Shown here in pieces: positions 18,210 through 49,343 of a stretch of 64,000 bases of DNA. The stretch lies in contig JAIWWG010000013.1 of NCBI GenBank assembly GCA_025435555.1, positions 124,001-188,000 on the forward strand, read 5' to 3'. Source of the DNA: Chytriomyces cf. hyalinus JEL632. Its lineage: Eukaryota; Chytridiomycota; Chytridiomycetes; Chytridiales; Chytriomycetaceae. Under the pieces are notes generated by a model. The model worked only from the letters and a program-made list of their open reading frames with translations, had not been told where the DNA came from and made no database searches. Each line of letters opens with the position of its first letter. Within the stretch, counting starts at the first letter, position 1. The position numbers were made by a program, and so were the translations under genes.

Positions 18210-18402
18210 ACGTTAATAATAAAGCTGATATGTAAAAAAGTTTCCATGGCCACTTCAACATGCGTACAACGCGAAAGTATCAAGAGTGCAGGCGGACATT
18301 AGTGAAATCTTGGAAGACATCCAGCTTCGCTCGTGGAGTTCTGGGCATTTTTGTCAACCAGTCAAGCAAAAGCAAAAAAGTAAAAAACCCGAACAAATAA
18401 AA

Positions 18403-19884: not shown

Positions 19885-20062
19885 GAGGGCGGCTCTTGTT
19901 TTTTTCTGCTTTTGTTTGACCGTTTATTTCCGTTTTATATGAAGGTTTCAAATTTCCTGTGGAGGGGTTGCTTGATGTATACAGAGTTTGGTTGTATTGG
20001 TGAATGGAGATTTGTTAAACCGGTGTATTATTTTAGCACGTGGGGAAAGAAGTTGAGTCAAA

Positions 20063-20797
20063 ATGGCACCAAGCAACGACGGCATCAAAACCACCGTACT
20101 GCGCATCCTCGAGTCACACGGCGTGAGGAGCCAATTCGAACATCTCTTGTCATCGAAGCTGCCGGACGCCCCCAAATCCAAGGACAGCCCTGCCTCGCTT
20201 TCGCCCATTTGGAGTATCGAAATCATTCCAAAAGGTGACCCTCGCATACATTGCATGCTCATTTCGAATACTTAAGTCCATGCTTCAATCGTTTGTTCGT
20301 GAGCTAACCTCTTTTTTTCTCACCAACCTTGCATGTGGCACCGCACCGTGACTTGAACAACAAAAAAACACTGGCAGAGGGAATCTGCACCTTCTCAAAG
20401 CCCTTAATTATTGCAACAGAAGCCTCGCACGAATGCCGTGTGGTCCGATTGGCGCATTCATGGGCGGACGTGTGGGACGTGACCTGTAAGGAGACTTGGA
20501 GAATTTTGCATCCCCAGAGTCCGCCATATCTAAATCATGTCAAACACGCGCACATATACAGACGACCCTCTCTATGAATACGTGATTGCACCCGCCGGAA
20601 ACTGGGTCCCCGCAAATGTATACAGTACCAACCAAGGGGGATTCAAAATTTTCGAGTCGACGAAAGAAGTTGAGGAAGCGATCGAGTTTTCACAGGCATG
20701 GGCAAACACGCTGGAGGAGAGGGGGTATGCGGATGTCGGGCAAGCGCAGGTGCGTTGGTTGGCTGGGAAGGAGACGAAAGGGGCTGCGAAGCTTTGA
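20063..20797 (+). CDS. Hypothetical protein, 171 aa
   Basis: Three exons: 20063-20234, 20378-20485, 20562-20797; spliced length is a multiple of three, and the donors (GTGACC, GTAAGG) and acceptors are reasonable. I do not recognise the family. The N-terminal ~55 residues are mixed and polar. The middle exon encodes beta-strand-like sequence (CTFSKPLIIATEA, CRVVRLAHSW). The C-terminal exon has YEYVIAPAGNWVPANVYST and an acidic helix (STKEVEEAIEF). No signal peptide or membrane segment is present, so it is probably a soluble cytosolic protein. An alternative is that the last exon, which has its own ATG at 20537, is a separate 86-codon gene. Confidence 0.55.
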
Positions 20798-21188
20798 GAT
20801 GAACGATTTGTGTGTGCGTGTGTGGGGAGGTTTTATTATTCAATCGAGAGTTGGAAAGAGTTGGGAAGTAAAAAAAAAAGAAGGTGGAATATTGAGAGTA
20901 TGGAAGAACCCGCTGGGTGTGATGTTGAATCCGTAAAATATGCTGGCCGCTTTGTATCGGGTTTTGGGACACAAGAATTTTTCTTGTTGGTTTGAGCGGG
21001 AGTTCCATTGTCTCTCGCTCTCTCGCCCAAATCTTTTTGTTCCATTTCAACTCTTCTTTCAAGACAGCCAGACGGACGACCCACCCCCCCTTGAGAGACG
21101 CACGCAACACCATACACAGAGCACACTTCAAAGCACGTTGCGAATACGAAGAGCGAACACGAACAACAACCAAAACAGTTCGCCCCAA

Positions 21189-23598
21189 ATGCCAACAACA
21201 GGTGGCCACAATGTAAGCAACAATGCGTCATGATATTGACCCCCTCCCCACCTCCAACAACAACACGTACTGCGTCAACCACCCTTGAAGTGGCGTCAAT
21301 GAATCCGTCCATGATAACAAGCCTAATTTTTAATCAAACTCAAACCCCCGCACAGACCCCCTTCTACCTCTTCGCGAAGCTGATGGAATGCATCCCAGTC
21401 GAAGACATCAGACACCACTTCAAAGTGTACCCACGCTCCTTCAGAGGGGAGGCCGCGATCACGGCCATGGTCGACAACCTCGGCTTTGCTCGCAGCGAGG
21501 CGGAGGAGTGCATGGGTGGTGTTCTCTATGCTCAGCTCATCATAAATGCCGATAAACCACGCGAACAGGAACTCAAGCCACGCCACATTTACTGCGTGAG
21601 CGTCAAAGGCGCTCTCGTCCTGCGAGATGTCAAGGCCAAGCGGTTGCTGGCAGAGTCACCTCAAACGATCTACTCGAACCCTCGTTTCAATGCTTCTACA
21701 AACATTCTCTACGTTGACAGGGATATGGATGGGAACTTGGCCTTACCAGAAGCAACGCTGAATGTGTTGTTCCGATACGCGTTGGGTGACCGCCAGCCCA
21801 ACCTGACGCGTTTTGAAAACCCTGCCACAATATTCTGTGAAGGCATGCCCGAAACTGCTGAAGCTGAGGGCAGCGGGAGCAACGGCTTGACCACCATTTG
21901 GCCCCTGTTTCTTCGAGACCGTGTCGTGAGACTTAAAGGATACACACACGCGTTTACTGGAACGGGCCTTGTTGACTGGGTGCTTCGTTGCTCCAGTGTC
22001 GTTTCACGAGTAGAAGCTATGGCCGTTGCGAGCGCATTTGTCGACGCTGGATGGATTGTGAACGTGAATTCTGAGGATGCGACTTCTCCTGCTCCGTCGC
22101 CGACGCTACCTGGAAGCGCTTTTACTGGCGTAATTCAAGTCAGAGACACAGCAAAGTCAGTGTATCAACCCAGTTTGACGGGCGTTAAATTGCTGGGATG
22201 GGACTTGACAATGGACACGCCCAGTGTCACGAGTGCCGTGCAAGGCTTTTTTCGTGCAAAAAAGACTGGAGAGGCCGAAGAGAGGCCGAGTTCTAGAGCC
22301 TCGATTACCAATTATAATGCTGGTGCTCCTGGAAGAGAATCGATTGTAAATGAGGATCGCGCCGATGGGCAGAGCAGAAAGTCAGACGCTGATTCTGGGA
22401 GTGAGTACATTTTCGTTTTGCCTTGTTTGGGGATTGACCCGCCGTTGCTGACTTAACACTCATTATAAACAAAGAACCACCTGGTTCCAAATCGATGACA
22501 CATCTTGATGTTGACAGCGCTGCTGACGGTGACTTTCACGGGTGGGAAAGCTGCCACACAAACCTAATCTCCATGGATGGGAGCAAGGCGGCTTCTCGCT
22601 CAAAAACTACCAGCATCGCTCCCACGAGCCCTCACATGGCAAACGGTGGCATGTCTGCCGGTACCAGCGCCGGCCAAGTTACTATAGACGAACTCTCTGC
22701 CAACAAAATCATTTCCAAAATCATCTCTGCTGCTCGCCCGAAAGCCGTTGCCATCAAAAAGGCCGCTGCCGCGCAATACAGTCAAGCCAACTTGCCTGAA
22801 ATGCTTCCCATGGATCCTTCCATCCCACGCGACCCACTCGTCGTGCAACTCAAGGAAAAAACGCACACGTTGCGTCTTGTGCAGATCCTGGAAACACAAC
22901 TCCTGTGCGAACAGTTTCGAAAGTACAACCATTTCATGTACAGTCAAGAAAATTTCGGGTTCTGGAGCGAGGCGGATGCGTTCCGGCGGTTATACAGCTC
23001 TGAAAATGCCGTGATTGTTCCTGGCCAACCGATTTTTCACAAGGAAGAGGCTGCGGAGGTTTCAAAACCTGTTCCACCGTTCCCCCAGCTTGTTGCGCAT
23101 GCCATGGCAATTTATTTAAAGTATATTGTGGATGAGGCACCGTATGAAGTCAATGTCGGATCATTGCGTAAAAAGACCATTACTGCCGCTGTCACATGCG
23201 AGGAACTTTTGCCGTTTTTTGAGCTCGTGAACCCAGAGTGCATTGTTTCAGATGCACTGATTGACCCTGCGACCGTGCTGCTACCCGGTACCGAAGCCAT
23301 GCTTACTGGAAGGTTGGCGGGATCAGACGGTACTGTCTCAAAAAACATGACTGCGAGCTTGCTGGATGTTGCAGAAAACCACATTTTCGCGTTGATGGCG
23401 ACCGATAGCGTGCCAAAGTTTTTGAAAACAACAGCGTATCACGATACAATGTTGGACTGCATCAAAAGTGGGGCGTTGAAGCGCTTTGATGACGAGGAAG
23501 GGAAGGCTGAACCTGCGCCAGATTTCGCGAAATTTGCGGCAGATAAACGACACAGTTCCTTGTTCCAGCCTGCCAAACAGACCGAGTTGGACGCGTAG
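21189..23598 (+). CDS. DEP-DEP-RGS regulator of G-protein signalling (Sst2-like)
   Basis: Model: 21189-21212, 21356-22400, 22475-23598; 730 aa. If the first intron is not used, translation could start at 21230 in the same frame. Two DEP-like modules are seen: one near the N-terminus (PVEDIRHHFKVYPRSFRGEAA), the second around 21,900-22,080 (LKGYTHAFTGTGLVDWVL). A Ser-rich linker follows, and then an RGS domain whose first helices are at 22,880-23,010 (LLCEQFRKYNHF, NFGFWSEADAFRRL). The RGS core is interrupted by a longer insert before the final helices (AYHDTMLDCIKSG). Sst2-type proteins accelerate GTP hydrolysis on G-alpha and use DEP domains to dock on receptor tails and membranes. The same window encodes a class A GPCR at 38 kb. 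Confidence 0.85.
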
Positions 23599-24365
23599 TT
23601 TTGCTTTTTTATATTGATATTAATATTCCTTCCCAATCTCTTTTTTTGTGCTGATTTTCTTCTGTTGAACGCTTGTTTACGTTGTTGGATTTCCTTCAGT
23701 CGCTATGTCTCACTTTATCATCCAATTCGCAATAAAAGCTTTGTGACTATACAGTCACTGTGCCTTCTTCACATGTGAGATCTACTTCAGTGGTGGTGGG
23801 AACATTACCCCAGGCGGCCAACCATGCGCAGAACGCTAGTCGGCGATACAATTCACTGTTTCGTTGAGGCTACCGAACTTGCAAAGAAATCGACGAAGGC
23901 ACCCACCTTTTTTCTCTCTCAACACAGCACAGCTATTTAAATGCAATCAATCGTAGGATGTGGGGCACTACGTTTTTATTTTTACGCAGTTTGAATTGGA
24001 GAAACTTTTGAGAATTTCGTGGTCCTGTGTCGAAAAGTGAGGGTTAATTAGATTATTACACTTCCAATTCTAAGCGAGTACATGGAGGGAGGGAGGGAGC
24101 GAGGAATGCGATCAGACGCGATTTTTTCGTTCCTCATGTATGAGAACTCAGAAGGAACAATTGGTGTATAAATATAAAATAGTCATCATATCGCAGGGAA
24201 CAGGGAGATCGTTTGGACAGATACGCCGGAGGATTTGGTTTTGGCCATGGAATGGGTTGAAGTCTCACCTCGGTGCAGAAAAAAAATGAAGTACAAAATC
24301 CCGTGCAGAGAGACGCGGGGCTCGAAAGAAAAAACGACGCTAAGCAAGCACAGCCCCCTCTCGAT
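23599..24365. other. Intergenic stretch, 0.77 kb
   Basis: This lies between the ends of two convergent genes (RGS protein and HSP10). No credible ORF or RNA gene was found. It contains T-rich 3'-UTR-like sequence after 23,600 and a short G-rich run near 24,083-24,103 (GGAGGGAGGGAGGGAG) that has quadruplex potential. Confidence 0.5.
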
Positions 24366-24817
24366 TTACTCTGAAAGTTTCGCGAGCAAGTCCTTGTCGG
24401 TATACAGCAGGAATTCTTCGCCAGAGATCTTGACGGTGTTTCCGCCGTATGGTGGCAGCAGAACCTTGTCTCCAACTTTAACGGCCATTGGTTGAAGGTT
24501 TCCGTTCTGTCGTGATTCCCAACAAGAAAAACGGGTTTGAGCGAGCACTAGATGGAAGGGCGTGTTTTCATGTAGTTACCTTGTCGGCAGCTCCAGGACC
24601 GGCGGCGAGAACAAGGCCTTCGTTCAAGGTTTCCTGGGCCTTCTCTGGGATGAAAAGACCTGTGGCGGTTCTCTGGCAATGGTGAAGAAACGGGTGAGTT
24701 GTTTAGTACAGTGGGAAACAGCCGCCGAAGGCCACACACCTCCTGTGCCTTCACACGCTGGATCAGAACACGGTCGAAGAGGGGCAGAATCTTCTTGGCT
24801 GCTGCTGCTGCTGACAT
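24366..24817 (-). CDS. HSP10: Mitochondrial chaperonin 10 (GroES homologue)
   Basis: Three exons: 24817-24740, 24672-24580, 24506-24366; 103 aa, the usual size. Conserved GroES features in order: PLFDRVLIQR at the N-terminus, the mobile loop (TATGLFIPEKAQE) that contacts HSP60, VLAAGPGA, and VKVGDKVLLPPYGG, ending with LLAKL. It forms the heptameric lid of the HSP60 folding chamber in the mitochondrial matrix. It is transcribed divergently from HSP60, whose start lies 155 nt away, so both partners of one complex share a promoter. Confidence 0.97.
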
Positions 24818-24971
24818 TTCTTGTTCTTTTTTACGGAACCTTGGGCATCGAATTTGCCAGTTTTTCGGGACACGAGAAATGGAATCGATTCGAACAACAA
24901 AGAACGGACAAACCCGGTTTCAAATCACATCAAACGCAAAGCACTAAAAAAAAAAAGAAAATACGAAAATA
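24818..24971. promoter_or_regulatory. Shared divergent promoter of HSP10 and HSP60
   Basis: Only 154 nt separate the two start codons, so the 5' UTRs and promoters of both chaperonin genes must lie here or overlap. GAA/TTC elements occur (TGGAATCGATTCGAAC near 24,880), resembling a degenerate heat-shock element, but spacing is not canonical. The architecture equals the head-to-head HSPD1/HSPE1 arrangement known in animals. Confidence 0.75.
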
Positions 24972-26939
24972 ATGTTGAGAGCAGCAGCGACTTCAGCCAA
25001 GCGAGTGCCTCGTCTCGCGCGTTCCTTCGCCTCCCACAAGGAAATCTCTTTCGGAAACGAGGGCAGACAGGCCCTCGCACGAGGTGTCGAAATCCTTGCC
25101 AAGGCCGTGGCCGTGACCCTTGGACCAAAGGGACGCAATGTGCTCATTGGTGCGTCCTAACCTTCTGAATTCTTTCGTTTCTGACATGTGCTGCTTCTTC
25201 AACGACTGCATCTCGTGATCATGATCTAAACAAAACCAACTCACCCACAGAGCAAGCTTACGGTCCACCCAAAATCACCAAGGATGGAGTTACCGTTGCC
25301 AAGGCAATCGTCCTCGAAGACAGGATGGAAAACCTCGGCGCGCGTCTCGTCCAAGACGTTGCCAACAAAACCAACGAAACTGCCGGAGATGGAACCACCA
25401 CAGCAACTGTTCTTACCCGCGCAATCTTTTTGGAGGGTCTCAAGAGTGTTGCCGCCGGTGTTAACCCAATGGACTTGCGCAAGGGTGTCCAGTTGGCTGT
25501 CGACCATGTCGTCAAGCACTTGCATGCAAACCGAAAATTGATCACCACCAGCGAGGAAGTTGCGCAGGTGCGAATCAGCTGCATCTTTTGTTTGCGCAGT
25601 GTTTACAGCGAAAACTGATTTTCTCACTTTTTACAGGTTGCCACCATCTCAGCAAACGGTGACAAGCACGTCGGTGGTCTCATTGCTCAGGCCATGGAGA
25701 AGGTTGGCAAAGAAGGTGTCATCACTGTTGTCGAGGGCAAAACCATGGAAGATGAGCTTGAAGTTACCGAAGGTGCGTCCATTCACAATTGTATTATTGC
25801 CCACGTCCTCATGAATTTTTTGCGGCTGCACAGGAATGAGATTTGACCGTGGTTTCATCTCACCATACTTCATCACTGACACCCGTACCCAAAAGGTCGA
25901 ATTCGAGAAGCCCCTTATCCTCCTTTCCGAAAAGAAGGTCTCCAACCTCCAAGACCTTCTCCCCATCCTCGAAATTGCGGCCACCCGTCGTCGCCCTCTT
26001 CTCATCATTGCTGAAGACATCGACGGTGAAGCTCTCGCCGCATGCATCCTCAACAAGCTCCGTGGACAGCTCTCAGTTGCGTGTGTGAAAGCACCTGGCT
26101 TTGGAGACAACCGCAAAGCTATTCTCCAGGACATGGCCGTGCTCACCGGTGGAACTGTGTTCAGCGACGAGGTCGATGTTAAGCTTGAGAAGGCTGTGTT
26201 TGAGGACTTGGGACAAGCCGCAAGTGCCACTGTCACCAAGGATTCCACCACCTTTTTAAACGGAGCTGGTGCCAAGGAAGCCCTCCTGCAACGCACCGAG
26301 CAGATTCGTGAATTCATTGCCGCCACCACCAGCGACTACGAGAAGGAGAAGCTGCAAGAGCGTCTCGCCAAGTTGAGCGGAGGTGTTGCGGTGATTAAAG
26401 TTGGAGGACACTCTGAAGTGGAGGTTGGTGAAAAGAAGGACCGTTACGACGATGCATTGAACGCCACTCGTGCTGCCGTTGAAGAGGGTATCGTCCCAGG
26501 TGGAGGTACTGCGCTTCTCAAATCATCTGCCTTGATTGCAGAACTCAAGGGCGAGAACTTTGACCAGAACCTCGGAATTGAGATTGTTCGCAAGGCCATT
26601 CTGGCGCCATGCAAGACAATTGTTGACAACGCCGGTGGCGAAGGTGCCGTTGTTGCCGGCCGTCTTTTGGAGAACTTTGACGCGTCTGTCGAAGGTGCCT
26701 TCAACCAGGGTTACAACGCTGCCCTGGGTGAGTACACTGACATGATCAAGAGCGGAATCATTGACCCACTCAAGGTTGTGCGAACTGCTCTTGTTGACGC
26801 TTCCGGAGTTGCCTCGCTGCTTGTGACCACCGAAGCCATGATCGTGGATGCCCCTCCTAAGGCTGGAGCTGCACCAGCCGGTGGCATGGGCGGTATGGGC
26901 GGTATGGGAGGAATGGGAGGTATGGGAGGAATGATGTAA
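24972..26939 (+). CDS. HSP60: Mitochondrial chaperonin 60 (GroEL homologue)
   Basis: Four exons: 24972-25149, 25251-25567, 25637-25772, 25834-26939; 578 aa. A basic, Arg/Ser/Ala-rich presequence ([21 protein letters not shown]) is followed by the equatorial domain with the ATP-binding motifs [10 protein letters not shown] and [11 protein letters not shown]. The apical domain contains EDIDGEALA. The second half of the equatorial domain has the VPGGGTALL signature. The C-terminus is a run of GGM repeats ending in MM, as in other mitochondrial and bacterial chaperonins. It folds imported matrix proteins in an ATP-driven cycle with HSP10, whose gene is head-to-head with this one. Confidence 0.98.
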
Positions 26940-27107
26940 AAACACAAATCCCTGCCGCTTGCTCTCTTTTTTATGTATTTGATTCACGTTTATTTTTTCC
27001 TTGAGCATGCCCATTTGCTCTCTCAACTTTAAGTGTGTTGGATTTCAATACAGATTTTCACAAGATAATTTCGAGTGTTCCCATACGAAACACAAAACAA
27101 ATCGCTA

Positions 27108-28111
27108 TCAAAGAATCTTCTTGGATCGGAAGAAACTGCGCAGGTAATGCAGCTGCCATGCTGCAGCAGCGACAAGGACAATAATAGATAAAGTGCTGAG
27201 CCATGCAACGCGAGTATTTGTGGATTCTTGAAAACCCGAAAAGGTCAGAAGGGAGACGGGAAACAAAAAAAAAAAAGCACGCACCATTCACATCTCGCAT
27301 TTTCTCTTCATCTGCCTTCAATACATCCATTTCTTTGATGAGCTGTTGACTGATGCGTTCGAGACGGTACACTGCAACGATATCCACTTTAAAAACAGCT
27401 CGGGAGAAAAGTATGTCACGGGTCTTCACTCACATTCTTGTTCCAAGGGCTCCAAGGTCTTTTTAGTTTCACTGAAATCTTCGGCTTCAGCTCCCGTATC
27501 CACATGCAGGGCGACGGTTCGTTTGTGTCCTTGCGATTCATGGTACGCTGGATTTTTCGCATCATCAGTTTTGCACAGTCGAGATCAAAAATCACGAGAG
27601 GCTGGCAACACAATTTGCGAGTTACCTGGATTCGAGTTTGTGTTTGTGAAGCAATAGTGGATGTTTGCGGTTTCGTGGGTGTTGAATGTGAATTTTTGCG
27701 AGCCTTCGCTGACGCTGTTTTTATCTGCGAGTGCCAATGTCAAAACGATCCGCGGAAGAAACAAAGAAATGGATTGTAGAGACTACTAACGGTAGTATTT
27801 GGAAGCCATGGCTGCATCGTCGAAGACCTGGAATTCGAAAATGAACGCATGAATAAGACAGGCATCGCGAAAATCGCAATAGAATGAAGGAAACTAAAGC
27901 TAAAGATGCTGAGAAAAAGGAATACCTCAACATCGACCCGTTGCTCCTTTGATTGATCGGGGCCAATTTCGTAATGTCCGACAATGAGCGTGTCTGCAGC
28001 AATGTATTGCTTCACACAGCGCCGGACTCCGCCGGGAGGCGCACTCGGAAGCTCGAATTTGATGGCGGCGATGTGAATTGCCGTCAGGACAAGAACCAGC
28101 AGTTTGAGCAT
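27108..28111 (-). CDS. p24/emp24 family cargo receptor (TMED10/Erv25-like)
   Basis: Six exons: 28111-27926, 27827-27791, 27724-27626, 27547-27434, 27371-27285, 27226-27108; 213 aa. It has a cleavable signal peptide (~16 residues) and a luminal GOLD domain with the two conserved cysteines (RRCVKQY and HYCFTN). A heptad-like coiled coil (LERISQQLIKEMDVLKADEEKMRDVN), one transmembrane helix (TLSIIVLVAAAAWQL) and a short cytosolic tail follow. The tail RSFFRSKKIL has both the FF motif used for COPII binding and a C-terminal KKxx COPI retrieval signal. It therefore cycles between ER and Golgi in the early secretory pathway. It is divergent from NUG1 with only ~103 nt between starts. Confidence 0.93.
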
Positions 28112-28214
28112 TTTTTGAGTTGCAAAAATATTCGCCCAGATTTTAAATTTAACATTTTTTGTTTTCTTTCTTTTTGTTTTCTGTTTTTTTCACGCCTATT
28201 TTAAAACCCAAAAA

Positions 28215-30461
28215 ATGGTCGCACGCAGAGCAAAGAGCAAGCGCCAGTCGGCCTCAAAGCAGTACAAGATCCGTGCGAAAGTCAACGAGCACAACAGGAA
28301 ACTGCGCAAGGAATCGAAAAAGAACCCAAACCCGAAGCGTGAGTATGCAACAACCTCACCAACTGTGACTTCCCTGTCACTGGATCCCCACTTATACTCA
28401 TCTTTCATCCTCCGAACGCAAATAGGTCTTAAGAAGGATCCTGGTATTCCATCCCTCCTGCCCTTCAAAGACAAGCTGCTGCAGCAGATTGAAGAAAACA
28501 AGCGCAGAGTAAGCTATCACCTTTCGATCAAACGCAATTCACCAAAACCGAAAAACTGATCCCTGTCTATGTTCATCTTCAGACGGAAGAAGAAAAGCAA
28601 ATGCTCCGTGACGCCAAAAAGAAGGGAAAGCTGACTGACCAGCAAGCACTCGCTGGCCTTGTCCGGGACGCAAACCGCAGAGCAAACTCATTCGATACTG
28701 ACAACGACAATGCACCCATGGGCATGGGCGGCGACTACCGCAAAGCGAATGAAGCTGCTGCTACCGGTCGCAAGGACAACTCTAAGAAGGCTTACTACAG
28801 AGAGTTTAGAAAGGTTGTGGAACAAGCAGATGTCATTTTGGAAGTGTTGGATGCAAGAGATCCTATGGGTTGCCGGCCGAAGCAGATTGAGGAAATGATT
28901 TTGAATGCAGGTATCAACAAGCGTATCATTTTGGTTCTGAACAAGATTGGTGAGCCGACTTTGTATCCTTTGAGTTCCCTTGAGTTTCACTAATCATATT
29001 CGGTTTCTGTCAGATTTGGTACCCCGCGACGTTGTCGAAAAGTGGCTCAAATATTTGCGAAACGAGTTCCCCACCATTGCCTTCAAAGCCAGCACCCAAA
29101 CCCAACGCACAAACCTTGGACACAGCAGTGTTTCTACAGACAAAGCAAGCCAAGACCTTCTCAACTCCAGCGAATGTCTCGGTGCTGACAACCTCGTTAA
29201 ACTTCTCAAAAACTACTGTCGTAACAACAACATCAAGACCAGCATCACCGTTGGAGTTGTTGGATTCCCTAACGTGGGAAAGAGCAGTGTTATTAACTCC
29301 TTAAAACGGAGCAAAGCATGCAATGTTGGTGCCACACCCGGTGTCACAAAAATTGCTCAGCAGATTCACTTAGACAAGAACATCAAGTTGCTCGATTGCC
29401 CTGGTATCGTTTTCAGTAAAGGAAATGTCTCGGACGACCCAAAAGCTCAGGCCGAAGTTTTGCTGAGAAACTGCGTCAAGACTGAGTTGATTGATGATCC
29501 GATCACGCCAGGTAATTGGGTTTTGTCGCAGTGATGGTTGGAATGAGTTTTTCTAATCGATCGTTTCCAGTCGAGTTAATTCTATCGCGGTGTACAAAGG
29601 AGCAGATTATGCTCTTGTATGATATCCCGCCGTTTGTAGACACTCGTGATTTCCTGATTCAATTGGCGAGACAGCGAGGAAAACTTCGAAAGGTGAATCT
29701 CACCGCCATTCAATGTCTGCTTTCTTGTCCTTGCTAAAAACAATCGCATATATTAGGGTGGTATGCCTGACCTCGAAAACACGGCTCGATCTGTCCTGCA
29801 AGACTGGAATGCTGGTCGCGTGCCCTTCTACACACTCCCACCCCTCACTACTGGACTTGCTGTCACTACGCACGTCGAGTCAAGCCTCGTGACTGCATGG
29901 AGCGCCGAATTCAGCATGCCTGAGATTGTCGCCGTTGAGGAGGAGGAGCTGATTCGCAGCACGGGCACAAGGGATACCATGGGACGCATGGTTGCGTTGA
30001 AGAGTTCAAGCGGTGTTGTTGAGGGAGACCTTGAGGAAGGTGTCGCCGATGAGGAGAGTGACATGGACGAGGATGAAGAGGAGTATGACGAAGAAGATAT
30101 GGAAGATGATGACGAAGAAGACGACGAGGAAGGAGAGGACATGGAAGAAGACTCTGAAGAGGAGGAGGAAGCACCAGTCATGAAGGCACCTGCAGCTCCG
30201 CCCATTGCTCTTGACATTAACCGACTCAAGGCCGCGGCAGCATCGAAAAAGAAGAAGTCTTCAGCGGGTGCCGAATCAAAAGCACCTGTTGTGTCTCTTG
30301 CGGAACAGCTGTTGAACCCACAAACCAACAAAGACCGTAAAAAGGCAATGAAGCAGAAGAAGAAGCAAGGTCGGCGATCCGTGGTTGTCGGCGGTGACGA
30401 TGCTTATGACTTTGGTGAGCACTTCGATTTGCCAGGTGGGGATATGGACGAGGATGAGTAG
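28215..30461 (+). CDS. Nucleolar circularly permuted GTPase, Nug1/Grn1/GNL3 family
   Basis: Six exons: 28215-28338, 28426-28508, 28583-28949, 29014-29511, 29571-29692, 29757-30461; 632 aa. The basic N-terminus ([17 protein letters not shown], then [13 protein letters not shown]) matches the GN3L/Grn1 N-terminal domain that carries nucleolar targeting. The GTPase motifs are circularly permuted: G4 (LVLNKID) comes first, then G1 (GFPNVGKSS), then G3 (DCPG). The C-terminus has a long Asp/Glu-rich tract and a final Lys-rich segment. Known family role: maturation and nuclear export of the 60S ribosomal subunit. The start ATG is in the consensus context AAAAATGG. The acidic tract produces a Ser/Pro-rich shadow frame on the other strand. 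Confidence 0.93.
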
Positions 30462-30700
30462 TCTGTTGTTTTCTTCTGTTCGGTCAACTGCAAGCCGTGT
30501 TTTTTTCTGTGTTTTCTTTTGTTTTTTGATATTTACTAGTGAGATACACTTTTTTGAGCCTGTATGGATTGGATGGATTGGATAACGCTGTTCACATTGC
30601 GACCGTACAATAAAAACTGTCTGTCAAACATGAGCCGCCATCTTACCAAAAGTCGAGAAGGGATATGCATTTTTATTTTCGGATGGGGAAAAAAGAACAC

Positions 30701-32943
30701 TTAGGCTAAGAATGTGCTGTTCACTTTGGGCCGCATCGTAAGCGTTGTTGATGACGCATTCGCGGTACTCACTGCTGGCAAGGTAGAACTGACTGATAAG
30801 GTAGTCCTGGGTTTTGGCAAGAACGCTTTCGTGGACGAAGGCTGTACAAAGTTAGTTGCAAGCCTGGCAATGTCCGAAGCGCTGTTTGATGGGCTATCGC
30901 GACTTGATATTTTGATTGTGCTGGTGTAGTTGTTTCGTTAGCTTTGTTTTTTAAACAAGTCAGCGCGCAACAACTTGCACTCACTATGCAATACTTAAAA
31001 GCGTCCAATTTGCGCAAAAGAACGGCGACCATGAAAAAAGAGTCAGCAAAGCAAAAGATAATGCGCTCAACAGAAAAGAGACACTTACAACAGCGCAATC
31101 ACGACAATAAACACAACCAACATTCCATAACACTTGAACCGGTGCACAAACCGAGAAATCGGCCCGTACTTGAGTAGCTGTTCTTCTTTAGGAAAACACC
31201 ACTGGCACGGCGCGTCTTCGTCCTCTTCATCCTGCTCCCTTCGATTGCGATGGCGGCGGTGGTGGTGGCGGTGGCCTGATACAGGTGAATCGGGGATCTC
31301 GCTTGTCACTGGAGTCATTTCAAAGAGCGCAGCTTCTTCAGGAACCACTGCGTTGTCTTTAAAAACACGCCGAACTTTTGAATCTTCCAGGAAATCGTTA
31401 TCGGTTGCAAACAGAATTGCTTCGTAAGCTGTGAATTGCGTGTCATTGTTCCCATCTTCTTGATTGCTGTTTCGGACTGCTGCTTGATCAAAGTCTGTCT
31501 TGACTGGGGATCCAAACGGATTCACGCGGTCGTAGTCTGGATTATCGTGACTGCTGCTTTGCGGTTGTTGCATCTCGGACTCTTCCTTGACCATTTGGAC
31601 CCACTCCTCGATACTCGCAGGCACACCACTTGCCGTGACGGCGTTCACATAACTCAAGGCTCGCCGCCGGTTCTTGTGGGTTGCTGGAAGAAGGTCCTGT
31701 GCAGATGAAACTGGCTGAGCAAAACGCGTGACACAGCCGTGAGGAATCTCAACACGTAAATTTGATGCGCCTTTTGTTCCAGTAAGCACCGAGGAAGGCT
31801 GGATACCGCTAAAGTCCATCTGAGGATGGAATTTTGAAGGACTAATGAGAGCGTTGATTGTTTTGGAGGTGTTTCCAGCTTCCAGTGTGGTTGGGGTGGG
31901 TTCGTGGGGAGTTGCGGGGTTGCTTTTGGCTTTTTGAGTGAATGCCGAGATTGTCGAGATTCTGCGCAAGATGGATTTGAAAGAAGCATTGTTTGTGGCC
32001 GATGCTGGTGTGTTTGTTGGGACTTTGAGGTTTTTGTTTCCCTCTTCTTCTCCTTCGTCTTCTTCTTGGATTTGGGCGACGCTTGGGGACGCAATTGTCC
32101 AACTGTTGATGTCACCTTTATCAATTGATTTAACAGATGGGCTTGGTGGTGGCAGTTCTGTCGAGAGAGATTGGGCCGCGGGCATGTCTGTCTTGATTTG
32201 CATCTTTGGTTTTGAATGCGGTTGCTGCTTGTTCCTGCCTTCGTTTTTTGCCGTGGGTTTCGGTGAAAGACGCGCCATCGCCGGCTGTTTCTGAATACTT
32301 TCAGTTTGCTCTGAAAGCTCCCGCTTGGCCATTCTACTCAAAAGCGTGGAATTGGATCTGGGATGGCCTTTGACCATAAAGTATTGCACATTCCCGATAA
32401 TATCCGTGTTTGTGAGCGGGTTCAAGACATGAAGCCTGTGGATCAGTTTCTTGTTTAAGTACACCTTGTTTTTATGTGTGCGAGTGTTAGTTTTTGGCCG
32501 AGTGAGGAGGTGTCGGATTAAGTTGGGGAGCAATGCATTCGCTGTTGTGTCACCTGAGTCTGAAACAGGATCTTGTTCAAATGATACGCGTTGTAGTACG
32601 AATAGAAGGCCCTCTCCGGCTGCTTATGGTCCCACGTCTGCACGCGCGCAAGGATGAAGCATTTTGTCCCTTTCGGCTCCGTATGTTCATGCGCCGCAAT
32701 CAATTCAGCGAATGTGTCCAAACAAAATGAATCTTCGTAATCGGCGCTGACAGAGTCCAGGACGCAGTCTCCGGTACTATCGAGGAGGTTGATGACTTTC
32801 ATGGTAGTGTTCTTTCTCCTGCGAGGGCAACTCCTAGCCGTCAAAGGAGTCGCGTTTTTGGGTTTTTTGGAAGATGTTTTGGAACGTATCGAAGTGATAT
32901 GGTTGATTGGTGTGTTGCCTGTGTGCAAATTGACTCGCGCCAT
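30701..32943 (-). CDS. Single-pass membrane protein of unknown family with Ser/Thr-rich C-terminal tail
   Basis: Three exons: 32943-32554, 32464-31089, 30920-30701; 661 aa. The N-terminal ~200 residues are the only globular-looking part (FYSYYNAYHLNKILF, NPLTNTDIIGNVQYFMVKG). A long polar, Ser/Pro/Asn-rich region follows, then a His/Arg cluster (HRHHHRRHRNRR), a CQWC motif and a transmembrane helix (MLVVFIVVIAL). Read without splicing the protein stops right inside this helix, but the stop overlaps a perfect donor (GTAAGTG). Joining to the acceptor at 30,921-30,923, with a GCTAACG branch site just upstream, restores the frame and adds ~73 Ser/Thr-rich residues. It is probably a plasma-membrane or ER protein with a disordered cytosolic side. 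Family unknown. Confidence 0.65.
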
Positions 32944-36838: not shown

Positions 36839-37853
36839 TTATTTGGCAGCTTCTGGCCAGTAGTGCCTCAAGGCAGCATCCTTCTCTTCTTGGCTCATTT
36901 GAATCCCAAAATCGCTTTGAATAATCAAATCCAGTTGCTCGAAGCTCTCGATATCGACCGAGCAGTTCAAGGCGCTTGTTTCAGACGTTTCGCGCCGCCG
37001 GAACGCTTTTCCAACGAGCTGTAGTGCTGCACCCGATTTGGAGACGATTGAGAGAAACAAGAATCGTTGCAGAAAATGTTTTGGGGAATGTGACACGTAG
37101 AAATTCATGACTTCGTAGTCTTGAGGTCTAAGGCAGAACGGTTTAACTGGGATTCAGCGCGGGGAATAGGGAATCATTTTTTGGTTACCTGCCGCGTTCT
37201 AAGGTAAAATAGAAAAGAGGCGTGAACCGCTGTAACGGGTCAGAGCTGCGGTCGACACCGTCGGCTGGAGCCGCCCATGGAGCCCGTCTGTGCCAGACCA
37301 TAAAGTTCCCAGGCCCCGTCAAATCTGCCGCTTGAATGCGATAAGCCTCTCCAGCAGGTCCCTCCGATGTTGCCCCCACCCGCACTTGAATCGCTTCCAC
37401 GAACCGAGTCCCACCCAAATCCACGAGATACGTGTCATTTCCCAATTCGACAAAGACAATCATGTGCAGCACAGCGTTAAAGATCCACTTGTCAATGCTC
37501 TTTTCGAATGCTGCGAATCGTCCGACGCCACTAGATGCCTTGAAACCGAGTGCTTTGATGGCACATAAGAAGAGAAGGTTGTTTTGGAGACATGTTCCGC
37601 CGCGCTTTTCGGCCACTAAAAGTTGAAAGACCTGAGGCGGATCAAGGGGCAGCTCTGTCTTTGTGAAGAGAGGGCCGATATTCTCAAATGGGATGGATGT
37701 TGCATGCGCATAGACGAGTTGGTTCAGGAGATCCAATGAGGGAAGTTCGTCCAGCCGTAGGAAGCTGCGACCGATGCGTTTCAAGTATTCGCGAGCTTGT
37801 TGAGCGGAGAGAGCTTCGAACTCGTGAGCGGGATTTAAGCTGGTGATGGTCAT
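36839..37853 (-). CDS. Arylamine N-acetyltransferase
   Basis: Two exons: 37853-37189 and 37127-36839; 317 aa. The protein transfers acetyl from acetyl-CoA to arylamines, hydrazines or related xenobiotics. The catalytic triad is recognisable: Cys in KRGGTCLQNN, His in VLHMIVFVE, and Asp in YLVDLGG. The N-terminal helical bundle has the family motifs LNQLVYAHATSIPFENI. The second exon begins RPQDYEVMNFYVSHSP, the usual C-terminal-domain entry. I start at MTITSLNP because the upstream codons read as 5' UTR. In fungi these enzymes detoxify plant or microbial amines. Divergent from the GPCR gene. Confidence 0.92.
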
Positions 37854-38022
37854 GATGCATAAAGATAAAATGCTGCGAAATATGCGTGACCCTTGATCTT
37901 GAAGCGGCAGTCCTCCTTCACGGTGATATTTCAGGCTGACTTGCGACTTACGACCATTTTTAAAGGATCGCCAAGAACAAAGAACATATATTCGATTGAC
38001 TCCCGTTCGTGCGCTGAAAATC

Positions 38023-39080
38023 ATGTCCCTGGACTTGACCGCAAATTCCGTTATGGCCTTGGATACGCTCAGCTATTGGTTCTCCGTAGTGTTTCTTGTC
38101 ATTGGAAACGTGGCGATTTTGTTCAACTACACTATCGTTCTTCTCAACCTGAAACACGCTCAACAACTCGCGCCCAGTTCATTTATCATACTGTGGCTGT
38201 GTTTCTTTGACGGGACATCAATATTGAGCAATGTCATTGTTTCAGCGCAGCACCTGCTCCGAAACAATGTCTCAGATGACGTCTTGCCGATACAAGTGCA
38301 CGGCGCACTCATTGTCTTTGCGCAGTGTTCATCTCTACTGCTGTGTTTCGGGCTCACTTTTTTCCGCTATCTTGTGATCGTACAAAACTTGCAGTTGTCG
38401 AGATACTTTGCGACTATTTACACCTCATCAGTCGCGGTTTTATCATCATTAATCGCCGGGATACCATTTTTCCTTGGAACGCAAAGCGAGTCCTATATTC
38501 TTCGACCGAGTACTGTTTACTGCTCCCCGGATTGGAGTCTTCGAAATTCGAAGGAAGTCATTCTCACGTGGGCGTGTTTCGCGGCAGTGTTTTTACCCAC
38601 CAGCTTTGTCATCTATGCATACGTTGCCATCATGTCTACCGTTCGGCAGTCTGTTTTGGAAGTGAAAAGCAGCCAAATGATCATTGGTGACACTGCCGGG
38701 GCTGCTGGCACTGACCTGGATACATCTGAGGCTGGAGTCACTGCAGGCGAGAAACTTCGACCAAGACCCAAGATGGAACTCCAGCAAGACAATCTCCTCA
38801 AGCAAAGCATCATTATCGTCTGCGCGTTTTTGATTGGTTGGACTCCGTATGTCATAAGTGGGTATTACCAGGTTTATTTCAAACACTTGATCTGAATATT
38901 CCAACAACAGTGTCAACATACGAGTTCGCAGGTGGGATGCGAGCATCACCTATTTTTGACTACGCAGCGGCCATGTGCGTCACAGTTTACGATGTCATCA
39001 ACCCCATCATTGTTTATAAATACGATCGGGATATTCGTGCCAATTGCAACAAAGTCTTCAATAAAGGAACAAGATGTTAG
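38023..39080 (+). CDS. Class A (rhodopsin-type) G-protein-coupled receptor, orphan
   Basis: Two exons: 38023-38857 and 38911-39080; 334 aa. Seven hydrophobic helices carry class A landmarks: TM1 GN (N29), TM2 Asp (D63 in LCFFDG), TM3 end FRY (114-116) in place of DRY, TM5 FLPTSFVIYAY (Pro and Tyr), TM6 FLIGWTPY (FxxxWxP), TM7 INPIIVY in place of NPxxY. Intracellular loop 3 is ~60 residues and Ser/Thr/Gly-rich. TM7 has Thr where opsins have the retinal-binding Lys, so it should not be a retinal opsin. The N-terminus is short, and the C-terminal tail is short and basic. True class A receptors are rare in fungi and known mainly from early-diverging lineages. Ligand unknown; the DEP-RGS protein at 21 kb could serve the same pathway. 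Confidence 0.87.
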
Positions 39081-40206: not shown

Positions 40207-41278
40207 TCAGTAGAGGCAAAAAGATTCAGCAACAGGTGAAAACTCACTGAAGGCAGCAGAAGGCGTCGCTAAGAAAGGATTTGGGGTTGATACAGTAGAT
40301 GACAGAATAGGTGAATCCCAGTGACCAATGATCGGAGTAGCTGCATCTGAGGCTAAGTTTTGCAGCACTGCACTCAAACCTGAGGGACCACTCTTTGGGT
40401 AGGCAAGAGAAGGCAGGAGTGGTGCAAAGGAGAACATGTTGTTGTTGTTGACAAGGTCTTGAGAATAGTCAGAGGGTCCCAGCAGTAAGCTGGGTGTTGG
40501 CTTGCTGGTATAGTTGTATTTGGCTGGAGAAGTGGGGCTGGAGCAGGGGGCTGGAGCAGGTGGGGCTGGGGCTTCAGTGTTCACAGAGCTTCTGGCAAGC
40601 CTTCCCGTGGCCATGCTCTCCGTAAACAATGAGTTCAGACATTCAAAGTCAGCGAGACCAGAAGTCAGCGTGCGCCAATGCCTGCTTGTCTTTAGGTAGA
40701 GCCTGAACAAAATGGTCAGCAAGGCATGCACGTACACACAATAAAAGAAAGCTTACGCAATGTACACCCTCACAACGTTTTTTCATTGGTTGGGCATGAA
40801 GGGAGAAATTCCAACCCCAACCGCTGAGGTCTAGCATCTTCAAAGCAGTGCCGAGCTTGAGCTTGAGGAATTGACCTTGGATTTGATTTGGGTGAGGTCC
40901 AACTGGATGTTGAACTCTCGGTTCAGCTTGTCAAGCACCACTGCCATGATTCAGGCTTGAACGTTCCCGCAGCTGTTTGCCATGATCGGCTTCAATCAAC
41001 AGCAAATGCAGCATGTAGGAGACTTCCTCCTTGGCCCAAGAGTGCAGTTGCCATACTGGAGTGGTCTGGGCTGGAGCGGTCTGTGTTGGAGGGGTCTGGT
41101 GTTGGAACGTACCCTTGAGCTGGGCAGTGTGTGTGGCCGGAGGCTGGGCGTGCGAGTGGATTGGAGGGTGGGCCGGTATCTGGTACGGCTGAGCGTTCTG
41201 GCAGGGTGACGTCTGTGGCACTGATCGTGGTGCCATTCCGTCTTGTTCTTGGAAGAAAAAACGCAAAGATGGTGCCAC
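40207..41278 (-). pseudogene. Myb/SANT-like protein remnant of a Harbinger element
   Basis: The order on the minus strand is: a Pro/Gln/Thr-rich N-terminus, then WAKEEVSYMLHLLLIEADHG (helix 1 of a Myb_DNA-bind_3-type domain). After a frameshift comes LDKLNREFNIQLDLTQIKSK (helix 2), and after another shift LKLGTALKMLDLSGWGWN (helix 3, like the LLSLSGFGWD motif of this family). A Ser/Pro-rich 176-codon stretch follows (40,737-40,207). The domain boundaries match the second protein of PIF/Harbinger transposons, which helps the transposase bind DNA. At least two frame breaks make it non-functional as read. Confidence 0.55.
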
Positions 41279-41445
41279 CCATTCCCCTTATTGCGTCATT
41301 GCAATGAGGGGATATGAGTACAGTATTTCCCCTCAAGTGGAGGAGAAAAAAGTGCAAGAACTGCACGGCTGCCAACACACTGCCACAACAACACTACAGC
41401 AATGCTCTGCCTCCTCTGCCGAGAGCTACTCTCCCACCACTACCT

Positions 41446-41987: not shown

Positions 41988-42790
41988 ATGTGGCTGCAAG
42001 AAATCTGCTGCGGACATCCCACTAGAATCCTCAACGCCCTTCGGATGAACACTAAAACCTTTGAGTAAGTGAGCTTTCATTTTTGCTGTTGTTCTTTTAT
42101 TGAGGCTTTTCTTTTCAGTGGCTTGGTGCACCTGCTAGTGTCGACTAGAGCACTTCCAACAACTCGGTTCATGCAGCCATTTGAGCAAGTCGCCATTTGC
42201 CTGTATGTTGTGGGAGGGAATAACTCCAACGGTGCGACGCAAGAGCGATTTCAACGCTCTGCAGATACTGTCAGTTGATCTTTTCAAGGGGTACTGAATG
42301 CCCTCCTAAAGCTGCAACTGAAATTCATGTGCCTGCTGCAAGCAGATAGTCCAAACCCCCTGAAATTGCACTCAATCCCAAATTCTCCCCATTCTTCGAC
42401 AGCTGTATTGGAGCATTTGACAGGATGCACATCAGTGCCATTGTAGGTGAAACTGAAAGCAACCCATACCGATGTTGTAAAGGCAGATTGCTGACACAGA
42501 ACATGCTTGGTGTTTGTGGCTTTGACATGAAGTTTCAGTTCATTCATGCAGGCTGGGAGGGTTCTGCTCATGACGGCAAAGTGCTTGCAGATGCATACGA
42601 AAATGGATTTGTCATTCCAGAAGGGAGATTGTATGTTGCAGATGCAAGTTATGCGCAGTGGGACAATGTTCATGTTCCCTACCACGGAGTGAGGTATCAT
42701 CTGAAGGAGTGGTGCCAAGGCAACCTAGAGTATGATTCTTTATTTGTTGAATATCAGTCTCAAGTGATGGAGCACTGTTTACTTCAATAA
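41988..42790 (+). pseudogene. Harbinger-type DDE transposase remnant
   Basis: Successive fragments match a HARBI1/PIF transposase in order. First come ICCGHPTRILNALRMNTKTFE (N-terminal helix) and, after a likely intron or gap, FMQPFEQVAICLY and NGATQERFQRSADTVS (helix-turn-helix region). Next is FFDSCIGAFDRMHI, containing the first catalytic Asp of the usual GALDGTHI. The last frame (42,425-42,790) has LLTQNMLGVCGFDMKF, AGWEGSAHDGKVL, LYVADASYA (second catalytic Asp) and GVRYHLKEW. The final QVMEHCLLQ may hold the third acidic residue, and a stop then truncates the C-terminus. Frame changes between blocks and the GTHI-to-RMHI change indicate decay. Confidence 0.72.
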
Positions 42791-43059
42791 AGGTTAATTC
42801 TCCCCAATTCATCTCTTATTCTCTACTGCAGATAAAGAAGAGTCCTGCACCTCACCATTCCACCAACCTCAATACATATGGGCATGAATTATGACATTGA
42901 GTAGGGTAAATGTCTAGTAGATAACAAGGAATGAATACACGAATCCTCATGTTCTATAAAGGGTGCAGACTTGTAGATGACGATAGCTTATTCTATTACA
43001 TGATTCCTGCTGATCAAGCATAAACATGGTTGGAAAGCAAATGTTTGGAATATATATGA

Positions 43060-43190
43060 TTCTGGCATAGCTGTTAAGGTTTGCGACCACAGACCCGCAG
43101 GTCACTGGTTCAACCCCACTGCTGCCAACTCCATGCAGCTATCTTCTGATCTTTATAGGGAAATAAGCAGAAGAAGAGGAAATAGAAATT
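43060..43190 (+). repeat. Candidate tRNA-derived SINE (pol III A and B boxes)
   Basis: An A-box-like TGGCATAGCTG (43,063-43,073) and a perfect B box GGTTCAACCCC (43,107-43,117) are 33 nt apart, the normal spacing for a tRNA promoter. The intervening sequence (TTGCGACCACAGACCCGCAGGTC) resembles a tRNA anticodon arm but does not form a clean cloverleaf. An A/G-rich body (43,150-43,190) follows. It sits amid other mobile-element debris. A decayed tRNA pseudogene is the alternative. Confidence 0.5.
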
Positions 43191-43503
43191 AACTTAGACA
43201 AGTATTCTATTACCACTTTTGTATGACTAATCTGTCAAGCCAGTCAAGCAATTAATCAATAACCTTACCCACTGTGGGGATATTGATTATAATTGACAAG
43301 CCTTTGCTGTCAGCCCAGTTCTGATTAATGAATCAGCCTGAAAACTGATTTGTGAGCAATGACTCACTTTTTCAGCAATTTCAAACTGGAAAATGACAAA
43401 TGAGTGATTTCACATCCATAATGACTTTTCTGACTGAAAATCTCAATTATGACAAATGAAATGGAAAAAAGGTGGCTGAGAAGTGAAATTGAAGAAAGCC
43501 TAA

Positions 43504-43960
43504 TTAGATTTTATGGGAGACAAAAATGTATATAAGGAGAGCTGTTTTGATGTGTTGTGATTCACCCTTAAGATAATAAATACTTATCAGCCCAAGTTCA
43601 AAACCAAACACATGAGGATTTGTGACTGAATTGCCAGATGCATCTGCCATGCATGCATTGAGATCGCCAACCAGCAAACAACATAGTGTAAATCCTTCAG
43701 ACAACAGTTCCACCTTTTGAAGCATGTCACCAATCACTTGGTTATCTACAGATGGGGGGATGTAGGCCATGATGATGATAAGGTCATGTGTGTGCATAGT
43801 GCAGTAGAATCCTCTGCTGGACACTTGGAATGGTCACCCAACATGACAACTGCCTTAAGTGCCACACTGGAATGTCCCGAATCTATGGTGCTGACTGCTC
43901 TGGCGCTTTTGCCCTTCTCGCTGCAAGACACTCCACACTGGCCCCCTGTTGGACGCAAAA
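43504..43960 (-). pseudogene. LINE-type endonuclease (EEP) domain fragment
   Basis: On the minus strand, the frame ending at 43,504 contains FYCTMHTHDLIIIMAYIPPSVDN and CCLLVGDLNACMADASGNSVTNP. The LVGDLNA motif is the catalytic GDFN/GDLN motif of the endonuclease/exonuclease/phosphatase domain of non-LTR retrotransposons. Upstream codons (to ~43,960) continue in another frame, so the fragment carries at least one frameshift. No reverse transcriptase segment was seen on either side, so it is an isolated remnant. Captured host EEP sequence is a less likely alternative. Confidence 0.5.
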
Positions 43961-44646
43961 TGTGGATCTACTCTTTCCTGAATGAATTCCGGAACACCAA
44001 ACCCGATGAAACTGATGCATACTCTGACATAGCAGAAGCAGTCTTGCTCATCTACACTGAATGTTGACATCTCCACCAGCAAGCGCATGGCCACTGGGCT
44101 GAGCCAGATGCTCCTGCTAGACCACTGCCAGCATGACAACCTCATAACCGCATCCCACAACCAGGCGGCTGGCCACTCAGATGACCCTGCCAAACCTGGG
44201 ACCTTAGATGATCAAATCCTGTCCCCCACGAACATCTGTCACACCAGCACTTTACCGAACACCTGTTTTTACATCTCTTCTGTTTTTACATTTCTGCCCT
44301 TTATTCCTTGGAATTTTATTTTGAACTTGCTGACCAACTTTTTATAATGTCTTGACCTTGTTTAGCACCTGTGTTACTGTGTAACTTGATTAAAAGAAAC
44401 TGAGAAGAACACACTTAGGATAAGAGAGATATTGCTTTGTGTTAGTCAATTGGCCGGGATCTACTGTGTCAATCAATCAACATCTACATCTACTAATGCA
44501 GTTGCTGCTCCAGACTTGTCCTCATACCTGTCTAGGAGTTACTTGCACAAGTGAACCTATTTCTGATACAAGCTCAAAGCAATAAGACAAGCAGACACTT
44601 TGTTTATTCTGCACTCAACAACGGTTAAAGCGCACCCTTGCGAGAA
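43961..44646. other. Repeat-derived, gene-free stretch
   Basis: Short broken frames only, no domain recognised. It is probably further mobile-element debris between the EEP fragment and the next host gene, whose stop codon is at 44,647-44,649. Confidence 0.4.
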
Positions 44647-47779: not shown

Positions 47780-49343
47780 ATGTCCCTGTCTATCGTTCTT
47801 CAAGCGCTGTCACTCGTCAACAGTTCGGACTGGAAATGCCCCGCACACAAGCAGCCAGTGCCACCCACGTATCTCCTCCAGGTGCTGCTTGGCAAGGGTG
47901 CTGCGCACGGCGACGTGTTTGTCGACGGATTTCTTGGCGAAGCCGACGATGACCACGTAACATGGCTGGTGGGATGGGCCACAGCGGGACTCTTTGCATT
48001 GGTGGCCATTTTGGTGTCTGGGTGGCTGATTGTCATGCACTTGCGTAACTGGACGCGTCCTGCTCTGCAACGGCATATTGCAAGGGTAATTCTGTCGATT
48101 TGAATGTTGATTGTGTCTGGTTTTTGTTCTGACGCCTCCCCCCGTGTACGGGTGCATCCCACAAAACAGATTCTGTTCATGGTTCCTAGCTACGCCGTTT
48201 GCGCCTTTGTTTCTTATCGATTTCCAGACTATGCAATTTATATCAACCTGTATCGCGACGTTTGTAAGAGATGCGCAGTTTTGCATGCAGTGTCTCTGTC
48301 TCGGCTATTCATACATCGTTCTCTTCACTCGATCCAGATGAGGGCTTCGCTGTATATTCCTTTTTTAGTCTCTGTCTACTATATCTCGGCCATACGTGGG
48401 ATGAACAGCGCGAATCAATGCGAGGAAGCGTGTTACAACGGTTCCCGCCACCAATGTGCTGTTTTCGATATGATCCGAAGATTCCCAACTTCTTGCTCTA
48501 CTGCAAACTTGGCATTGTACAATTGTTTATTCTCCGCTGTTGTACGAGCACATTTACGGTCGTTATGAATCATTTCGGTGTCTTTTGTGAAGGTGCGTTC
48601 CGTTCAAAAAGCAAAACCATTGAACTTACAGCCAACAATCCAACAAAAACACAGCTTCCATGTCGTGGCATTTCGGACATTTTTGGGCTGTTCTTCTGAA
48701 CAGCGTGAGCATGGGTTTCAGCATGTTCACACTCCTCTCTTTTTACTTAGCAGTGCACCATGATTTGCCTCCCGGCCGCCCCATCTACCAATTCTTCGCC
48801 ATCAAATTTGTGCTATTTGTGAGTTACTTGCAAATGTTCACGCTCACGTTTTTAGTCGGAATGGGTGTAATCAAAGGGACGGATGTTTACAGTCCCAGCG
48901 ATGTGATTACGGCAATTGCTGGATTCTTGACGTGCGTGGAAATGGCGTTTGCAGCGATTGTGAATTGCTCTGTGTTTAGTTGGAAGGAGTTTGCTGTGGA
49001 CGATGACGCGGCCGTGCGGAGGTTGAGTGCGGCTGCGGCAGGGTTTCTTATCGACTGGGACACGGGTGTGGACGGAGTTGGTGAAAATGCAATGGGTTCG
49101 AATGGGAGGAGGAGGGGAAGTTCGCGATGGAGGCAGACGGGAAGGTTGGGAATGTTGGATGCCTTTGTGGACTTTGCGAAGCCGGACGATTTGTGGGATG
49201 ATGGAGGACTCATTTTGAGGTCTTTAATTGCGTGGGTTCGGGGCGGTGGTGCGAGTGATGTGGAGGGAAATCAGGATGTAGGCGTTGATGGTCGAAGGGA
49301 GGTTGCGGGAGAACGGACACGTCTTTTGCCAAGTTCAACTTGA
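47780..49343 (+). CDS. TMEM184/organic solute transporter-alpha (DUF300) family membrane protein
   Basis: Four exons: 47780-48085, 48170-48263, 48338-48592, 48655-49343; 447 aa. About seven transmembrane helices. Family landmarks in order: QRHIARILFMVPSYAV (with the conserved Arg-His), INLYRDVYEGFAVYSFFSL, FPPPMCC, LLYCKLGIVQLFILR, and late helices with FFAIKFVLFVSYLQMF. The junction at 48,263/48,338 regenerates RDVYEGF, which closely matches the family and confirms the intron. The C-terminal ~110 residues are a polar cytosolic tail. Members have been linked to solute transport and vacuolar/endosomal membranes; the substrate here is unknown. Confidence 0.9.

Follow-up and report, generated by a model that had tools for sequence, protein, structure and literature searches.

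The interval 38023-39080 of the window, as we call the whole stretch of 64,000 nucleotides that was analysed, holds one intact two-exon gene on the forward strand which codes for a class A GPCR. The product is probably a functional, ligand-activated receptor of a zoosporic fungus, derived from a lineage-specific, chemoreceptor-like expansion. This explanation is supported by the match to the Pfam family 7tm_1, by an intron site shared with paralogues, by the arrays in which the family is found, by the absence of Lys at position 7.43 and by the set of G-alpha genes in the same assembly. Taken singly, the gene does not stand out within its family except by Ile at position 3.25.

Structure of the receptor gene

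The initial annotation described the interval as a single receptor gene. This stands, but the gene is not a single uninterrupted frame: the ORF opened at 38023 runs into a stop at 38895, and TM7 is read in another frame, which ends at 39080. A scan for GT/GC-AG introns around the frame break gave 11 open joins. Removal of the intron given in Table 1 (variant A) leaves a product of 334 residues, open across both exons, and the splice splits a Met codon (A/TG). Variant A scored 62.7 bits against 7tm_1 and variant B (38872-38924) 60.5 bits, and variant B was dropped for its lower score. Variant C (38858-38931) was dropped on its length in comparison with the paralogues, the Pfam scoring having covered variants A and B only. 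Variant A is preferred because it has the higher Pfam score of the two, a paralogue-like length between GW and NP and an A/TG site that occurs in paralogues as well.

The A/TG join is also present in four of the five intron-bearing paralogues tested (L068, L069, L071 and L072), in one of which, L071, two acceptors are possible with the A/TG donor site; the fifth, L070, gave no join under the A/TG rule. Without this rule the segment from GWxPY to NP is 37 residues long in the window gene, L068, L069 and L072, in a test where L068 also permitted 42 residues and L070 and L071 lay outside the scoring. The real start codon may be the second ATG, at 38053, with a product of 324 aa, since in some paralogues, L068 among them, the first Met falls at this place in the alignment.

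Table 1. Coordinates of the receptor gene and of its divergent neighbour in the window
Feature	Position	Strand	Remarks
Arylamine N-acetyltransferase frame	37185..38024	-	Acetyltransf_2, E 3.7e-22; divergent neighbour, outside the receptor
Exon 1	38023..38857	+	N-terminus, TM1-TM6, to the end of TM6/start of ECL3
TM3 FFRY	38359..38370	+	3.48-3.51; F113-Y116 of the 334-aa product; replaces DRY
Intron	38858..38910	+	Phase 1, 53 nt, GTGGGT...ACAACAG
Exon 2	38911..39080	+	ECL3, TM7 (NPIIV), helix-8 segment YDRDIR, stop codon

Class A identity and altered positions

The proposed assignment to class A GPCRs was borne out by the profile search. The spliced protein matches 7tm_1 with an E of 4.9e-17 and 62.7 bits (cut-off 30.5) over profile positions 2-259 of 260, which is nearly the full length, and 7tm_1 is its sole Pfam family at E <= 0.01. 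Seven hydrophobic 19-mers in the product correspond to seven predicted TM segments. Among the solved structures in the 22 PDB matches listed, substance-P receptor fusions come closest in sequence (best E 6.3e-07); a rhodopsin structure was matched over TM6-TM7 (E 0.018). A structure prediction made on the exon-1 frame alone, as a single sequence, had a mean pLDDT of 45.6 and a pTM of 0.30 and lends no support to a fold.

That the product could instead be a class E (cAMP-receptor, Dicty_CAR) or another non-class-A seven-helix protein is brought to mind by the nine Dicty_CAR matches in the assembly, yet we find it very unlikely. The window locus lies outside these nine, no match to Dicty_CAR (PF05462) was found in the product at E <= 0.01, and what the product does match at this threshold is 7tm_1 only, with R3.50-Y, GWTP and NP in place. 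The Dicty_CAR loci on contigs C8 and C241, for their part, are under the 7tm_1 cut-off and unmatched by the family HMM at E <= 0.01.

Ballesteros-Weinstein numbers were set on an alignment of 26 receptors. The class A residues retained are N35 (1.50), L59 (2.46), D63 (2.50), R115-Y116 (3.50-3.51), P148 (4.60), P192 (5.50), Y200 (5.58), F269 (6.44), W273-T-P275 (6.48-6.50) and N309-P310 (7.49-7.50), together with C167 and W171 in ECL2. This is in accordance with the landmarks named in the initial annotation, i.e. Asn in TM1, Asp in TM2, Pro and Tyr in TM5 and FxxxWxP in TM6. Altered positions are F114 (3.49), Q255 (6.30), G272 (6.47), T303 (7.43), V313 (7.53), I90 (3.25) and 4.50, which is not Trp; class A receptors usually have D/E3.49, Cys6.47, Tyr7.53, Cys3.25 and Trp4.50. 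Three features which are characteristic of class A, if not universal in it, are thus lacking: the acidic residue of D/ERY is replaced by F114, the Tyr of NPxxY by V313, and the disulfide between Cys3.25 and the Cys of ECL2 has I90 on one side and C167 on the other. Thr in place of the retinal Lys was also correctly noted, as T303 occupies position 7.43, where type II opsins carry Lys.

A family of about 60 loci in the same assembly

The assembly searched comprises 37.8 Mb in 242 contigs. The 7tm_1 profile matched 63 times when each exon is counted separately and five contig-end copies (discussed below) are included; none of 14 control genomes had a match. With the spliced protein as query, 144 matches were obtained. 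In the viral and prokaryote collections, 35 and 6 pattern matches were obtained in the search for relatives and none was confirmed by tblastn. For the family count, 62 rows spanning the Arg of TM3 were picked by hand with the five contig-end copies excluded, which gives about 60 related loci, some of them fragments, among the best-scoring candidates. At least 180 query residues are covered within one exon in 43 of the 62 rows. The figure refers to loci and not to working genes, because a gene split into neighboring fragments may have entered it twice, stops occur in some of the loci and only the best candidates were scored. Many rows lie in arrays: 15 on contig C174, 13 on C90, 10 on C111 and 6 on C187. 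The closest paralogue, L068 on C145, has 50-53% identity, and in a tree of 34 rows it is sister to the window receptor with support of 100/99.

Residues were read in 34 receptors including the window gene (the 26 aligned and eight more), roughly half of the loci; L016 and L070, which have no joined product, and shorter fragments were left out. The motif pattern scored 31 of the 34, and the remaining three, which failed the TM3 pattern, were taken from the alignment. All 34 have F, L or V at position 3.49 and none has D or E; L016 and L070 both carry LFRY. R3.50 is present in 33 (His in L007). At position 7.53 each of the 34 has V, I or A and never Tyr, Lys7.43 does not occur in any, and position 8.47 is Asp in 32, with Asn in L078 and L080. 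Among the 26 aligned receptors Gly6.47 is invariant, and Cys3.25 is present in 25, the exception being the window receptor with its Ile.

Because 3.49 and 7.53 are changed in 34 of 34, both FRY and the NPxxY variant characterize the family and are not oddities of one gene. The FRY and NPIIVY landmarks of the initial annotation are therefore present, but they do not distinguish this gene, and the singularity that the annotation implied was not upheld in view of about 60 loci and of the missing acidic 3.49 and Tyr7.53 common to the 34 read.

The loss of Cys3.25 in the window copy alone (1/26), while the ECL2 Cys stays, counts against the explanation as a functional receptor, as it could reflect relaxed constraint. 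It could also be taken, together with the stops seen within a number of paralogous matches (part of them intronic), as a sign that the gene is a decaying member of the expansion, with an open frame and compromised folding or signalling. We hold this to be unlikely. The frame of 334 codons is open over two exons, its splice site is kept, the other near-invariant positions of the alignment are retained, and some class A receptors do without the disulfide between Cys3.25 and ECL2.

An opsin-like type II photoreceptor is hardly credible as an alternative. Apart from the distant similarity to rhodopsin over TM6-TM7, it has in its favor that a 2022 paper, which detected an "opsin-like type II GPCR" across various zoosporic fungi, counts it among the green-light receptors (PMC9616733, accessible parts). 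The absence of Lys7.43 from all 34 receptors read, the window receptor included, argues against ordinary retinal attachment. According to the available portions of two further papers, the Spizellomyces punctatus protein has this Lys "unlike those in other chytrids" (PMC5410147), and holomycotan rhodopsins are without light-sensing residues (PMC12716839). Type I rhodopsin matches are moreover present in the same assembly and could supply light sensing. As far as the accessible text of the 2022 paper shows, such a gene is scored there by search alone (PMC9616733). Of the 34 read here, none could hold retinal by the standard Lys.

Several other seven-helix frames were seen in the assembly. L073 (C90), L074 (C196) and L075 (C187) are class A frames that reach 621-637 aa because their third intracellular loop is long; in TM3 they carry YVRF. 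L076 (C8) and L079 (C241) are above the cut-off for Dicty_CAR and unmatched by the family HMM, and L077 (C170) has a weak match to that HMM (E 1e-4).

Contig-end copies and neighboring genes

The receptor gene was matched six times at equal 7tm_1 score in the assembly, and a near-identical block of 10 kb, from 32460 to about 42745 of the window, recurs on contigs C18, C24, C51, C183 and C234. This could be attributed to a recent amplification, in which a dispersed 10-kb segment carries the receptor in six copies. The copy on C24 departs from the window by 4 substitutions and 32 indels, and these can be viewed in favor of amplification as far as 23 of the indels lie away from homopolymers (9 are in or beside them) and 21 cluster in 40376-41396, so that they could be allelic and not errors. 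However, each of the five extra copies breaks off at one and the same base, at the end of its contig. Four of them (C51, C234, C183 and C18) are mutually identical for at least 8,159 bases, from which C24 differs at one point at least, and these four first diverge from one another within the interspersed repeat that spans about 42745 to 43612. The ratio of 4 substitutions to 32 indels also resembles that of errors. We therefore regard amplification as highly improbable, and the five extra copies as a probable assembly artefact in which one long read or graph path was appended to five contigs. Read as one appended path, they leave the receptor gene to be counted once; such a contig-end artefact would inflate gene counts. 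The window's own place is absent from the rows of the DNA self-search, where missing rows are not proof of a single copy.

The surroundings of the gene show further features. The arylamine N-acetyltransferase frame overlaps the start of the receptor by 2 nt. Frames with DEP (two stretches) and RGS adjoin at 21230-23598, about 14 kb from the receptor, and point to a G-protein regulator with what we take to be an Sst2-like make-up. A Solute_trans_a (Ost-alpha) frame is situated at 48660-49343; this family corresponds to class 13 of fungal GPCRs in the accessible part of a recent classification (PMC12842992). The interspersed repeat at 42745-43000 (to about 43612) has at least 30 further rows at 93-98% identity, and another at 44001-44629 has rows at 67-98% identity. 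Positions 15538-32822 are collinear with C181:97888-116068 in four pieces on the same strand, at 71-73% DNA identity, which suggests an ancient duplication, either segmental or of the whole genome, or else a hybrid origin.

Host genome and G proteins

G-alpha (PF00503) had 96 matches in the assembly, which were grouped by hand into about 34 loci, to our knowledge far above the numbers known for other fungi. They lie, for example, at C220:5514-12255, C100:280323-285094 and C161:203002-206666, and several form tandem groups. The assembly also has 18 matches to chitin synthase, three to IFT57 (one frame), four over cut-off to type I rhodopsin, 56 to 7tm_3 and nine to Dicty_CAR. None of the 14 control genomes had a match above cut-off for any of these six families; below cut-off, G-alpha was seen in one of 14 and IFT57 in three of 14.

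The matches to chitin synthase and IFT57 are most naturally read as those of a fungus that has genes for intraflagellar transport, and together with G-alpha and type I rhodopsin they fit a zoosporic host. The contig that carries the window is 553 kb long, and its G+C of 0.42-0.52 has no break at the receptor gene. Contamination of the assembly by animal DNA, the objection raised together with the initial annotation, is unlikely because chitin synthase and IFT57 are found in the assembly, the contig is long and G+C is even at the gene. The chytrid (fungal) origin proposed for the receptor fits with the presence of chitin synthase and IFT57 beside it.

Proposed mechanism and role

A small extracellular or membrane ligand would bind in the helical bundle, the retained toggle (F6.44, W6.48 and P6.50) would move TM6 outward, and R3.50, steadied by Y5.58, would engage one of the many G-alpha subunits. 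In class A receptors the off state is usually locked by D/E3.49, R3.50 and E6.30. As read from the sequence, this lock cannot form here, with Phe at 3.49 and Gln at 6.30, nor can the active-state contact of Tyr7.53, as that Tyr is absent. With both missing, the balance between off and on must rest on other contacts, and a substitute is possibly the near-invariant Asp8.47, a candidate by its conservation alone.

The most likely role, by analogy, is chemosensing by zoospores or germlings, which fits with the arrays, the size of the family and the number of G-alpha genes. About 60 receptor loci beside about 34 G-alpha loci are concrete candidates for chemical sensing in zoospores, and the family offers a natural experiment on which of the class A switch residues a receptor can do without.

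A broader proposal is tentative and, in our opinion, rather doubtful as a whole: the family would be the fungal equivalent of the chemoreceptor repertoires of animals, i.e. an independent class A radiation with many members in tandem arrays and about 34 G-alpha loci alongside. In a common ancestor, acidic 3.49, Tyr7.53 and Cys6.47 would have given way to hydrophobic 3.49, V/I7.53, Gly6.47 and near-invariant Asp8.47, and the members would be zoospore chemotaxis receptors working on a rewired switch.

Comparison with known receptors

The substance-P (NK1) receptor and bovine rhodopsin, which are the best PDB sequence matches among the 22 listed, are distant relatives, and both have D/ERY and NPxxY.

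Closer to the subject, Krishnan et al. 2012 described 12 rhodopsin-family receptors, three in Allomyces, one in Batrachochytrium and eight in Spizellomyces, and Liu et al. 2025 a "class 15" of 984 sequences with large numbers in Entomophthoromycotina (accessible parts of PMC3251606 and PMC12842992). The near-absence of the rhodopsin family from Dikarya, stated in the initial annotation, agrees with the former. As far as these parts go, the window receptor resembles both sets in its homology to 7tm_1, in D of TM2, Arg of TM3 and NP of TM7 and in a flagellated-fungal host, inferred in our case. The Chytridiomycota and Blastocladiomycota receptors of 2012 are reported there to have D/ERY and Cys in ECL1 and ECL2 (PMC3251606), whereas D/E3.49 is found in 0 of 34 in the window family and the window copy is without Cys3.25. 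Their number, one to eight per species in three flagellated fungi, also stands against about 60 loci here.

In the available portions of PMC3251606, PMC12842992, PMC5410147, PMC9616733 and PMC12716839, no large fungal family is described as having lost the acidic residue at 3.49. Titles and abstract beginnings of open-licence literature yielded, among the matches listed, neither a chytrid class A expansion nor a GPCR of zoospore chemotaxis. Rhodopsin-family receptors in zoosporic fungi are thus already known, and with respect to the accessible literature the new part is the replacement of the switch.

Two other systems show part of the same changes, as judged from the accessible text. Choanoflagellate rhodopsins have lost E/DRY from TM3 (eLife 2025, PMC12716839) and share with the window family the absence of the retinal Lys; they differ in being two sequences, in keeping the disulfide and in that no comparable expansion was found in that text. 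The opsin-like GPCR of S. punctatus, a Lys-bearing protein modelled by Ahrendt et al. 2017 (PMC5410147), is likewise a class A receptor in a chytrid and also lacks Tyr7.53 (NPVLF). Unlike the window receptor, which has Thr, FRY and no Cys3.25, it carries the retinal Lys along with ERY and the disulfide.
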